Positions 21,184 through 58,724 of a stretch of 64,000 nt of DNA are shown piece after piece. Within the stretch, counting starts at the first letter, position 1. Every line of letters starts with the position of its first letter. The translations under genes were made by a program, and so were the position numbers. The DNA is taken from positions 2,852,001 through 2,916,000 of the forward strand of contig NZ_CADDWH010000001.1 in the NCBI RefSeq assembly GCF_902809865.1, in the 5' to 3' direction. The notes under the pieces are model-generated. The model saw nothing but the letters and a program-made list of their open reading frames with translations. It was not told the origin of the DNA and did no database searches. The DNA is from Halobacillus sp. Marseille-Q1614. GTDB taxonomy: Bacteria > Bacillota > Bacilli > Bacillales > Halobacillaceae.

Positions 21184-22989
21184 TTAGTTTTTCAACCACA
21201 ACTCATATAATTTGTCGATTTTTGTTTGGAGGTGACGCTTTTTATTTTCTTTCTGTTCAAGCGCCAATTCACTCTCTAAATTTACAATCTGTTCCTCATA
21301 GCTTAAAGAAGGCTGCTGCTCTTCATGAGGTCTGGCATCAACCTTCTTTTCTTTCTTATTGAGACTTTCTTCAAGCAGCTGTTCCCAGTGGCTTTTCGTT
21401 TCCTGATAGCTTCCTAAATAACGATAAAGCCGGCCATCGACTAAATAAGCTGTTTCGTCAAAGCACTGATTTAAAAAATAACGGTCGTGTGAGACCCCAA
21501 TTACCGTACCTTCAAATCCTTTTAAAGCTTCTTCCAGCACTTCTTGTGACTCAATATCCAAGTGGTTGGTCGGCTCATCCAACACGAGAAGATTAATCCC
21601 CATGTGCATAAAAATCGCTAATTGCAGCCTCATGCGCTCACCACCGCTTAAGTGCCCGATTTTTGTAAAGACATCATAGCCATAAAACATAAACCCGGCG
21701 AGAATGTGGCGGGCCTGCCCTTCGGTTACAATGACGTGCTCCCGGAAATGGTCGATTAAACGGCATCCTTCATCCACATTTTTAAGCGGATGCTGCGGTA
21801 AATATCCCACTTTAATGGAGGAGCCCTGTTTGACTTCACCGTCATCCGGACTCAATTCACCGAGCAGAACCTTGATAAAAGTAGATTTCCCGCTGCCATT
21901 TGTGCCGACGACTGCCAAGCGGTCTTGAAAGCGGAGGTGAAGAGATACATCCTCCAGAACCGAGTGGTCGTCAAAAGCAAGACCGACATTTTCTGCGATC
22001 AGTACATCCCCGCCGCTTCGTTCCTTCATTTCGAGCGATAGATTCATTCGTTTCGGGTCAATCACCGGCCGGTCGATCTTCTCCATTCGCTCCATTGCCC
22101 GTTCCATGCTTTTCGCTTTTTTAAAAAGCTTCGGGTTTGGCGGATTGGCTTCATTGGCCCACTGTCTCAGACGCCGAATCGCTTCTTTCATTTTCTTTAT
22201 TTTCTTCTGCTGCTCCTGATACTGCTGGAACTCGGCCAGCAGCTTCTCTTCCTTCTGCTTCTCAAACGAGCTGTAATTCCCTTTATAGCGTTCGGTATCG
22301 CCCGATTCTACATCGACGATCGTATGGACGACTGCATCTAAGAATTCACGGTCGTGCGAAATAATGCAGACAGCGCCCTTGTACTCCCGCAAATACTTTT
22401 CCAGCCACTCAATGGCATGCAAATCCAGATGATTCGTCGGTTCATCAAGCAGCAGTACATCCGGCTTTTCTAGTAAAATTTTCGCAAGCGACAGCTTCGT
22501 TCTTTCGCCGCCGCTCAAACGGCTGATCGGCTGCTCCAGCAAGTGACTGACTTTAAGACCATGGGCTACCTGCTGAATCATTGACTCCATTTCATAGCCG
22601 CCTTTTTCTGTAAACTGATCCTGCAGCACGCCGTATTTCTTTAACGCTTTTTCCATGCAGGCGGGATCCATCATTTTCTGCTCAAGCTGTTTCATTTCAT
22701 CAAGCATCTGATGGAGCTCTGTAAATGCGCTCATTAAATAAGAGGTTCCTGAACCTTCAAAGGATTCCGGAATCTGCTTCAGATAACCAATAGACAATCC
22801 TTTTTTAATAAACAGGCTGCCTCTGTCTAAAGGCTCTTCCTTTGTAATTAATTTAAAAATTGTTGTCTTCCCACTTCCATTTCTTCCGACTAACCCAATC
22901 TTCTGGCCTTCATCTATTTCAAAGTTAAGGGACTCAAACAGTACTTTTCCCCCAATAATTTTATAGGCATCTTTTAACGTAATATACAT
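21184..22989 (-). CDS. ABC-F family ATPase, probable ribosome-protection protein
   Basis: 601 residues with two ABC domains and no membrane segments. Domain 1 has Walker A GRNGSGKTT (about 36-44), signature LSGGERTKLSLAKILLEKP and Walker B VLLLDEPTNHLD. A long charged linker (about 240-320: KEAIRRLRQWANEANPPNP) follows, then domain 2 with GTNGSGKST and LSGGERMRLQLA. The C-terminal extension is coiled-coil-like. ABC-F proteins act in the ribosomal E site; the antibiotic-resistance members displace drugs. Length, linker and an attenuator-like leader with its own peptide suggest a resistance-type member, but the drug cannot be inferred. Confidence 0.9.
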   Translation of the reverse strand: MYITLKDAYKIIGGKVLFESLNFEIDEGQKIGLVGRNGSGKTTIFKLITKEEPLDRGSLFIKKGLSIGYLKQIPESFEGSGTSYLMSAFTELHQMLDEMKQLEQKMMDPACMEKALKKYGVLQDQFTEKGGYEMESMIQQVAHGLKVSHLLEQPISRLSGGERTKLSLAKILLEKPDVLLLDEPTNHLDLHAIEWLEKYLREYKGAVCIISHDREFLDAVVHTIVDVESGDTERYKGNYSSFEKQKEEKLLAEFQQYQEQQKKIKKMKEAIRRLRQWANEANPPNPKLFKKAKSMERAMERMEKIDRPVIDPKRMNLSLEMKERSGGDVLIAENVGLAFDDHSVLEDVSLHLRFQDRLAVVGTNGSGKSTFIKVLLGELSPDDGEVKQGSSIKVGYLPQHPLKNVDEGCRLIDHFREHVIVTEGQARHILAGFMFYGYDVFTKIGHLSGGERMRLQLAIFMHMGINLLVLDEPTNHLDIESQEVLEEALKGFEGTVIGVSHDRYFLNQCFDETAYLVDGRLYRYLGSYQETKSHWEQLLEESLNKKEKKVDARPHEEQQPSLSYEEQIVNLESELALEQKENKKRHLQTKIDKLYELWLKN

Positions 22990-23011: not shown

Positions 23012-23051
23012 ACAAAAAAAGCCAAAGGCCTCATGGGACCTCTGACTTTGG
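23012..23051 (-). terminator. Leader terminator upstream of the ABC-F gene
   Basis: On the minus strand CCAAAG pairs with CTTTGG around a GGTC/GGCC inner region, followed by seven T. It lies between the leader peptide and the ABC-F ribosome site, so it would switch off the gene unless prevented. Confidence 0.8.
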
Positions 23052-23096
23052 ACGTTCGCAAATATCAAATCAGGTATGAGACGTTATCTTTTTTCT

Positions 23097-23142
23097 ATTT
23101 AACTGCTAAAAAAGGGCATACTTCCCCCTTGGACAGTTAAAT
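23097..23142 (-). promoter_or_regulatory. Anti-/pre-terminator hairpin overlapping the leader peptide
   Basis: ATTTAACTG (23134-23142) pairs perfectly with CAGTTAAAT (23097-23105), enclosing AAGGG/CCCTT and a T-run. A ribosome stalled on the leader peptide would disrupt this structure. Regulatory role is inferred. Confidence 0.6.
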
Positions 23143-23203
23143 CATGAAAAAGCGCACGGTTGATATACAATAGTTCACGGTCAATTACGTGCATCGATAA
23201 CAT
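23099..23203 (-). CDS. 34-residue leader peptide of the ABC-F gene
   Basis: ATG 23203 is preceded by AAAGGAGG (23211-23218) at 7 bases, one of the best ribosome sites in the window. The peptide begins MLSMHVIDRELLYINRAL and ends SMPFFSS. It ends 109 bases before the ABC-F start and its last codons lie in the first leader hairpin. This is the layout of translation-coupled attenuators known for erm and ABC-F resistance genes, in which drug-stalled ribosomes on the leader expose the downstream gene. The peptide itself is unfamiliar to me. Confidence 0.7.
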   Translation of the reverse strand: MLSMHVIDRELLYINRALFHDLTVQGGSMPFFSS

Positions 23204-23239
23204 CTTCATACCTCCTTTCTTTGCCTTTAGTTAATATAT

Positions 23240-23268
23240 ATTATAGCGGAGAATGCTAATTAGTGCTA
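23240..23268 (-). promoter_or_regulatory. SigA promoter of the ABC-F leader
   Basis: Perfect TATAAT at 23240-23245 on the minus strand, with a weak -35 (TAGCAC) 17 bases upstream, overlapping the end of the MarR gene. A CTAATTAG palindrome lies in the spacer and might be an operator. Confidence 0.5.
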
Positions 23269-23727
23269 GTTCAGTTTGGCCGCATATACGCCGAGCTTTT
23301 TCAGCAGCTCAATCGCCTGTTTCTTTTCCTCATCTGACAAACCGCCGGTAATCTTTTCGATCTGCTGCCAGTGATCAGGAAAAATATCATGGAGAAGCTG
23401 TTTTCCTTTTTCATTAATAGCCGCATACGTAATTCTTCGATCACTCGGATCGGGAACACGTTCGATGTACCCTTTTTTCTCGAGCTTGTCGACTACGTAT
23501 GTAATGCTTCCGCTGGCAAGTAAAATCTTTTCACCGATCTTCTGAAGCGGCTGTTCTCCTTCATGATAAAGCAGTTCCATTACACCAAATTCGGTCGGGT
23601 TGAGTCCGTATCTCTGAATGTCTTCCTTCACCAGGTCCGCAATCGCGCGGTTAGCCTTCGATAAGACGACAAACAATTTCAGCGACGGATCTTGTTTTTT
23701 TCTAAGGTATGATTCTTGTTCGTCCAT
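23266..23727 (-). CDS. MarR-family transcriptional regulator
   Basis: 153 residues, winged helix-turn-helix: LNPTEFGVMELLYHEGEQPL, then the recognition region KILLASGSITYVVDKLEKKGYIERVPDPSDRRI with the MarR wing. ATG 23727 has AGAGGAAGAG upstream and is preferred to an ATG seven codons earlier. A TTTAATA repeat (TTTAATACGTTTAATA) upstream at about 23754-23769 next to a possible -10 may be its own operator. Ligand unknown. It lies just upstream of the ABC-F leader but probably ends its transcript separately. Confidence 0.85.
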   Translation of the reverse strand: MDEQESYLRKKQDPSLKLFVVLSKANRAIADLVKEDIQRYGLNPTEFGVMELLYHEGEQPLQKIGEKILLASGSITYVVDKLEKKGYIERVPDPSDRRITYAAINEKGKQLLHDIFPDHWQQIEKITGGLSDEEKKQAIELLKKLGVYAAKLN

Positions 23728-23803
23728 ATTTCTCTTCCTCTCATCCACCCTGTTTAATACGTTTAATATAACAAAGAATCGAAAATTCCTAAAGGTTTAC
23801 AGT

Positions 23804-58506: not shown

Positions 58507-58534
58507 TTGATTTTAAAAACACTATATATAGTAT
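58507..58534 (+). promoter_or_regulatory. Likely promoter of the riboswitch-nrdAB transcript
   Basis: TTGATT (58507-58512), 16-base spacer, TAGTAT (58529-58534), immediately upstream of the riboswitch. Confidence 0.5.
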
Positions 58535-58539
58535 CCGCG

Positions 58540-58690
58540 AATAGAAGATGCCACTAGGCTTAATAGGGAATCTGGTACAATTCCAGAACTGCCCCCGCAA
58601 CTGTAATCACTCGCGAAACGGATCACCCACTGTGCATTCACGGGAAGGGCCGGAGTAGGATCGAGTGTAAGTCAGGAGACCTGTCTTCGT
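58540..58690 (+). ncRNA. Cobalamin riboswitch
   Basis: The conserved aptamer is plain: AATAGGGAATCTGGT, ACTGCCCCCGCAACTGTAA and, at the 3' side, the B12 box AAGTCAGGAGACCTG. It senses adenosylcobalamin. Downstream, GATGAAAC (58725-58732) can pair with GTTTCATC (58770-58777), an antiterminator that captures the left arm of the terminator at 58775-58804. So B12 should favour termination and lower nrdAB expression. Confidence 0.93.
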
Positions 58691-58724
58691 TCGCAGGAGT
58701 TTCTACTTCTTCGGGGATTGAGAA

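Follow-up and report, generated by a model that had tools for sequence, protein, structure and literature searches.

Among the closest described counterparts of the leader RNA analysed here are Listeria rliI (RF01487) and the Bacillus subtilis vmlR leader. For RliI, initially taken for an sRNA, binding to lmo1035-lmo1036 mRNA has been reported (PMC8079631); it was later described as a putative conditional terminator, Term-seq reportedly marking it as that of lmo2760 (PMC8079631). In the vmlR leader an anti-antiterminator holding the start of an upstream open reading frame (uORF), an antiterminator and a terminator precede an ABC-F gene, and a pause hairpin with TTNTTT is present (PMC9226507). 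Further leaders offer partial parallels. In B. subtilis tlrB an RNA structure would bury the leader's own ribosome site, and an upstream RNA polymerase pause gives the leader time to be translated (PMC6851288). The MTHSMRLR-type leaders of erm(K), mef and msr genes act by transcription attenuation (PMC4335068), and Listeria hflXr/rli80 is a uORF-dependent transcription attenuator first catalogued as a small RNA (PMC6310831).

The window, i.e. the whole 64,000-nucleotide stretch of Halobacillus sp. Marseille-Q1614 DNA that was analysed, contains a leader that has in common with rliI the helices P1, P2 and P3, the terminator, a uORF of the type ...FLYIVRAIF... and a position directly upstream of an ABC-F gene, P1 being shorter in Listeria. 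With vmlR it shares the set of anti-antiterminator, antiterminator and terminator, the pause-type hairpin and the ABC-F target, but the vmlR uORF is the tripeptide MIN and those of the other ABC-F leaders in PMC10201436 have 3-4 codons, whereas that of the window has 34 codons inside a three-way junction and its target is of another ABC-F subfamily. The remaining systems differ as well: tlrB has a 9-codon leader ending RYR, an rRNA methyltransferase as target and no identified antiterminator, the erm(K)/mef/msr leaders encode an RLR peptide, and hflXr/rli80 has a 14-aa RLR uORF and is unrelated to the window's leader in sequence and target gene. We consider it probable, on the strength of sequence comparison and modelling, that the leader is an rliI-family uORF-coupled transcription attenuator of VmlR-like logic, in which the ABC-F gene would be on when a ribosome is held at the uORF start. 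The attenuator would combine this logic, and its homology to rliI, with a long uORF set in a three-way junction.

The uORF and its ABC-F gene

The regulated gene encodes a 601-aa ABC-F ATPase (21184..22989, ATG at 22989) and, like all leader features described below, lies on the minus strand of the window, its Shine-Dalgarno (SD) sequence at 23003-22998 following directly after the terminator. The protein scores 465.9 bits against the NCBIfam model NF000355 (ribosomal protection-like ABC-F), above the cut-off of 380, and falls below the cut-offs of the NCBIfam models for the named resistance proteins Vga, Msr, Lsa, Sal, OptrA and CplR. On these matches it is a ribosomal protection-like ABC-F outside the named resistance families. 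ABC-F paralogues within the same genome are at most 37% identical across most of the protein, while the ABC-F of the nearest named relative, H. massiliensis, is 80% identical. Orthology to VmlR or VmlR2 was considered and rejected, as the PDB sequences of both score under YheS, Uup, EttA and PoxtA. Upstream, a MarR-family regulator gene (window 23266-23748, minus strand) ends 62 nt before the uORF start. Elsewhere the window carries a cobalamin riboswitch (58529-58701, plus strand, 102 bits).

The first-pass annotation had described a 34-codon leader with a well-spaced ribosome site, and this holds: the SD AAAGGAGG (23218-23211) stands 7 nt before the ATG at 23203 of the uORF MLSMHVIDRELLYINRALFHDLTVQGGSMPFFSS (23203-23099, stop codon 23101-23099). 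A homologous uORF of about 30-50 codons is present in 82 of 86 distinct upstream regions of ABC-F relatives from Halobacillus, Thalassobacillus, Pontibacillus, Terribacillus, Psychrobacillus, Jeotgalibacillus, Rossellomorea, Metabacillus and others, and the uORF is probably translated in vivo. A probable -10 box, TATAAT (23240..23245), lies 42 nt upstream of the uORF start; it has no convincing -35 element and is absent from the list of a consensus promoter scan. In 29 of 34 divergent leaders a -10 box matching at least 5/6 positions is found, mostly about 40 nt upstream. The uORF contains no R/K-X-R/K motif, i.e. the RLR/RYR-type macrolide arrest motif. An amino-acid-starvation attenuator was rejected, since the uORF has no run of one amino acid.

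Three-way junction and modelled switch

With a folding energy of -82.3 kcal/mol (z = -7.3), the leader of 256 nt is more stable than any of 200 shuffled sequences. It is a three-way junction, in which the closing helix P1 encloses P2 and P3 and buries the SD and start codon of the uORF. The 5' strand of P1, termed A (23213-23196), comprises the uORF SD, start codon and first codons and would act as the anti-antiterminator strand; it pairs with the 3' strand, D (GATAACGTCTCATACCT, 23088-23072), whose alternative partner, indicated by covariation and folding, is the 5' arm of the terminator. P2 is formed by TGCACG (23188..23193) and CGTGCG (23153..23158), with 92.7% of alignment cells paired and changes on both sides in six of its six pairs. 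P3 (23150-23091), likewise defined from pair counts, includes a perfect stem of 9 bp, ATTTAACTG/CAGTTAAAT (23142-23134 with 23105-23097), with the stop codon of the uORF inside it; this is the hairpin in which the leader had already been seen to end.

Conservation of this fold is evident at several depths. In a 15-sequence alignment both-side changes occur in 34 cells, compared with 11.7 in shuffles, and sliding the partner along lowers pairing from 91% to 35-47%. The class-wide alignment of 81 sequences, which was fitted to the structure and so leans towards it, has 719 double-changed cells against 210 when shuffled, a number reached in none of 500 shuffles. From the leaders of all genera aligned with plain MAFFT, RNAalifold recovered only a 3-bp hairpin, because the P1 arms are too diverged, and pairing tests and covariance models were used instead. 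Independent of any alignment of the arms is a duplex-energy test on 35 divergent leaders: A pairs with its own D at -22.9 kcal/mol as against -15.4 with the D of distant relatives, the native partner being better in 34 of 35 (p=6e-11). A further helix in the minimum free energy fold joins CTAAAGGCAAA (23230-23220) to TTTGCCTTTAG (23012-23002), which abuts the ABC-F SD. Its pairing is kept in the Halobacillus and Thalassobacillus examples inspected and is weak elsewhere (p=0.014); in the Halobacillus group it may restrain ABC-F translation, and a general helix between 5' end and ABC-F SD was rejected beyond that group. The elements listed in the first-pass annotation were thus correctly described, but P1 and P2, the sequestered uORF start and this Halobacillus-type helix had been missed.

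The second hairpin of that annotation, with seven T before the ABC-F SD, is an intrinsic terminator (23049-23014) with a 13-bp stem, the hairpin spanning 23049-23018 and then T7. All 76 homologous leaders tested carry a terminator, compared with 2 of 76 shuffled ones. Conservation of the peptide frame and of both hairpins in related species, on which the original proposal had been made to depend, was borne out in silico, by the uORF frame (82/86), the terminator (76/76) and the retention of the hairpin in these species. Evidence for an antiterminator is modest: D pairs with the 5' arm of its own terminator at -9.0 kcal/mol compared with -7.8 for others, the native arm being better in 24 of 35 leaders (p=0.002), and a control duplex of A with the terminator arm shows no covariation (p=0.78). 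All three VmlR-type elements, an anti-antiterminator that includes the uORF start, an antiterminator (with the modest evidence just given) and a terminator, are present in the leader. Sequence and folding together support a switch in which A:D opposes pairing of D with the terminator 5' arm. The earlier proposal of attenuation stands as regards a uORF-coupled transcription attenuator; the 9-bp hairpin it had cast as the switch is not itself the antiterminator and gives way to these alternative pairings of D.

We folded the transcript up to the terminator loop for 34 leaders, with the uORF start either free or masked as by a ribosome. A:D folds in all 34, and pairing of D with the terminator arm rises from 8 leaders with the start free to 26 with it masked. 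In the window, the antiterminated fold becomes the most favourable once the start is masked (-47.1 kcal/mol, compared with -45.6 when the terminator is forced), and in it D and flanking bases (23082-23056) pair to 23052-23028; the margin is just 1.5 kcal/mol, which counts against our best explanation. So does the full-length fold with A masked, in which the terminator is still best in 33 of 34 leaders, and antitermination would therefore have to be kinetic in most species. A modelled ribosome at codon 17, single or with one queued behind it, leaves the off state of A:D and terminator intact. Since masking the start flips the fold and codon 17 does not, the uORF start is the position that matters in the model, as has been reported for vmlR (PMC9226507).

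In the mechanism that we propose, the default would be a uORF that is translated and its ribosome released; in that state the A:D helix and the terminator would both form, keeping the ABC-F gene off. A ribosome-targeting antibiotic, the presumed inducer, would hold a ribosome on the uORF start or first codons and so mask A, leaving D to pair with the terminator 5' arm and letting transcription continue into the ABC-F gene. RNA polymerase would probably pause at the apical P3 hairpin and T-run before D is made, giving time for a ribosome to load.

Peptide and RNA selection within the uORF

We first read conservation of the whole uORF peptide as coding, a reading rejected on codon analysis of related pairs, which shows the apical part to be RNA-driven. 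The codons of the P2 loop have a pN/pS of 0.25 (CI 0.17-0.33), denoting peptide selection, and those of apical P3 one of 2.7, denoting RNA selection. In two loci (L147 and L257) the uORF keeps FLY[IF]VRAIF and the apical GGGANAAGTCTGCCCTTTTTT motif is read in another frame (G[QE]VCPFL), indicating an RNA-level constraint there. Part of the uORF peptide probably matters, and its conserved end is an effect of RNA. The suggestion that an unfamiliar leader peptide might betray a new inducing drug thus finds no support: the conserved end of the peptide reflects RNA conservation, the family had already been catalogued in Listeria as rliI, and the modelled trigger is occupancy of the uORF start, involving no stall in mid-uORF.

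The peptide signal does bear on a different view, in which the nascent segment [L/I]-Y-[I/F]-x-R-A-[I/K/Q]-[F/T] stalls the ribosome at about codons 16-20, with a drug or with none, perhaps with ribosomes queued behind. The low pN/pS lies in the codons just ahead of this segment, A17 is unchanged alongside 40% synonymous change, Y13 is changed in 13% alongside 37% synonymous change, and the signature [L/I]-Y-[I/F]-x-R-A is also found in Listeria, in family f62 with its short uORFs and in two genomes from outside Bacilli (L207 and L208). We nevertheless judge such arrest unlikely, as the modelled ribosome at codon 17, queued or not, fails to disturb the off state, and the R16 and A17 codons double as the P2 3' arm, which accounts at the RNA level for part of their conservation. 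Our preferred reading, masking of the uORF start, has its own difficulty here: the strongest peptide constraint (L12, Y13, R16, A17, H20) falls downstream of the codons at which a ribosome flips the model. Start masking does not explain why residues 12-20 are constrained, which counts against it.

The apical hairpin and the rliI family

P3 ends in the hairpin GGGGGAAGTATGCCC followed by TTTTTT (23128-23108), conserved as a motif and proposed as an RNA polymerase pause signal. GGGANA[AC]GUNUGYCC is near-invariant in 81 leaders, usually followed by Ts, the window having G at the fourth position. The window's hairpin (23128-23114) runs directly into TTTTTT, the arrangement of hairpin and TTNTTT that marks NusG pause sequences, and TTNTTT is found in this region in 53 of the 81 leaders; the T-run is absent in part of the Halobacillus clade, which counts against our best explanation. 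A hairpin followed by a T-rich motif serves in vmlR and tlrB as a NusG-dependent pause, keeping RNA polymerase in step with the ribosome on the leader (PMC9226507, PMC6851288, PMC12288461), the TTNTTT motif being insufficient on its own (PMC12288461). By analogy, the apical P3 hairpin and T-run probably pause RNA polymerase in the same way.

The apical motif with T6 occurs 57 times in 52 of 200 genomes, against no occurrence of a reversed control pattern. It is also present in leaders of MFS-family genes (uORF MHTF...SFFS) and, as GGGATAAGTCTGTCC with T6, lies outside the uORF in the MTHSMRLRFPTLNQ-type leaders we read, those of Msr-family ABC-F genes, which score 780 and 743 bits against a cut-off of 680, and of a Mef-like pump. 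The MTHSMRLRFPTLNQ-type leader peptide is that of erm(K), a gene regulated through transcription attenuation (PMC4335068). One further occurrence (L217, G127:C8:73875-73895) stands ahead of a gene for a 249-aa protein that has no NCBIfam match, its leader having its own short ORF and terminator; this is possibly another drug-response gene. A 9-nt loop so nearly invariant might be taken for the binding site of a small molecule that is recognised directly by the loop or the junction. Such a riboswitch seems to us very improbable, given that this loop is also present in leaders whose uORF and gene are unrelated and that part of the uORF is under peptide selection.

The window's leader is matched over its full length by the Rfam rliI model (24.8 bits, E=1.1e-4), short of the gathering score of 45, and a model built from Bacillaceae leaders only finds L. 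monocytogenes rliI in return (36.4 bits, E=1.7e-6, L198:2205-2348), inside an RF01487 match of 282.6 bits. Both RNAs lie upstream of an ABC-F gene and have a homologous uORF, MFLLNARTSIAKFLYIVRAIF...; no published report of an rliI uORF was found in a partial literature collection. By sequence the leader is homologous to rliI, yet it is no member of RF01487 by Rfam's own criterion. The ABC-F gene directly downstream of L. monocytogenes rliI is 47.6% identical to the window's, in a locus between a GH1 gene and a pair encoding an ADP-ribose-binding protein and guaB, and can be taken as lmo2760 by position because a review names lmo2760 as the gene after RliI.

A first covariance model matched 83 of 400 Bacilli genomes and 38 of 146 genera, and a second also matched five genomes outside Bacilli. 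In the 50 loci read, the ORF that follows is ABC-F-like by its first residues in all but three (L166, L178 and L185), with one ambiguous (L145); L185 is a weak match ahead of a GNAT gene. For an Enterococcus homologue, a search by locus name in the partial literature collection found no published work. That the RNA acts chiefly in trans as an sRNA, its position before the gene being secondary, was the first proposal for Listeria rliI and draws on the reported binding of lmo1035-lmo1036 mRNA (PMC8079631). We give this very little credence, since at nearly all loci read, drawn from dozens of genera, the RNA adjoins an ABC-F gene, and A, D and the terminator are laid out as a cis switch.

The same Halobacillus genome holds, outside the window, a second copy of the leader RNA (L166/L205, G000:C1:2587259-2587412, plus strand), found at 45 bits and later scoring 77 bits with a model whose training set includes it. 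It has a uORF, MHTFIEDIKIEKKYLVLMMSFTGILAVLGTSLSFFS, and a terminator, and precedes the gene for a 396-aa MFS transporter, a distant relative of tetracycline pumps; the pair of MHTFIEDIKIEKKYLVLMMSFTGILAVLGTSLSFFS uORF and MFS gene is seen in other genomes too (L227-L229, L246, L247, L249). On three staphylococcal plasmids (L200, L201, L204) a uORF, MFLIAYCCRYLQIIRNKFS..., lies upstream of ABC-F homologues with about 46% identity, and the SD is preceded by a hairpin of the CTATAAGGAA..TTCCTTATAG type; the leader model scores only 14-21 bits there. No terminator is seen in these three leaders, which are possibly a translational version of the switch.

Lmo2760 is listed as newly made only during infection, with no drug (PMC8407217), which counts against our best explanation. 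It would suit a feedback sensor in which translation of the uORF is inherently difficult and the stall is resolved by the ABC-F protein itself, so that what is sensed is missing ABC-F activity or a physiological ribosome problem and not a drug. Peptide selection in the uORF and the placing of the window's gene outside the named resistance ABC-Fs agree with this view, which we think improbable all the same, as the apical element common to the MTHSMRLR macrolide-type Msr and Mef leaders points to a drug response. A broader conjecture, advanced tentatively and itself rather unlikely, makes rliI the Listeria member of an ancient and widespread Bacillota attenuator family. In that conjecture the long uORF would encode an undescribed arrest or sensor peptide (LYIxRA[I/K/Q]F) that senses the ribosome state its ABC-F resolves, and the pause hairpin would be modular and common to the macrolide leaders (Msr, Mef, MTHSMRLR type).

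With the homology described here, what was one Listeria 'sRNA' becomes a cis-regulatory family that about a fifth of the sampled Bacilli genomes contain. Because the uORF separates peptide from RNA selection codon by codon, the sensing step is directly testable, and the sharing of the pause-like hairpin suggests a common module behind unrelated drug-response leaders. The ABC-F subfamily downstream of this attenuator family is uncharacterised and gains from it a function that can be tested.
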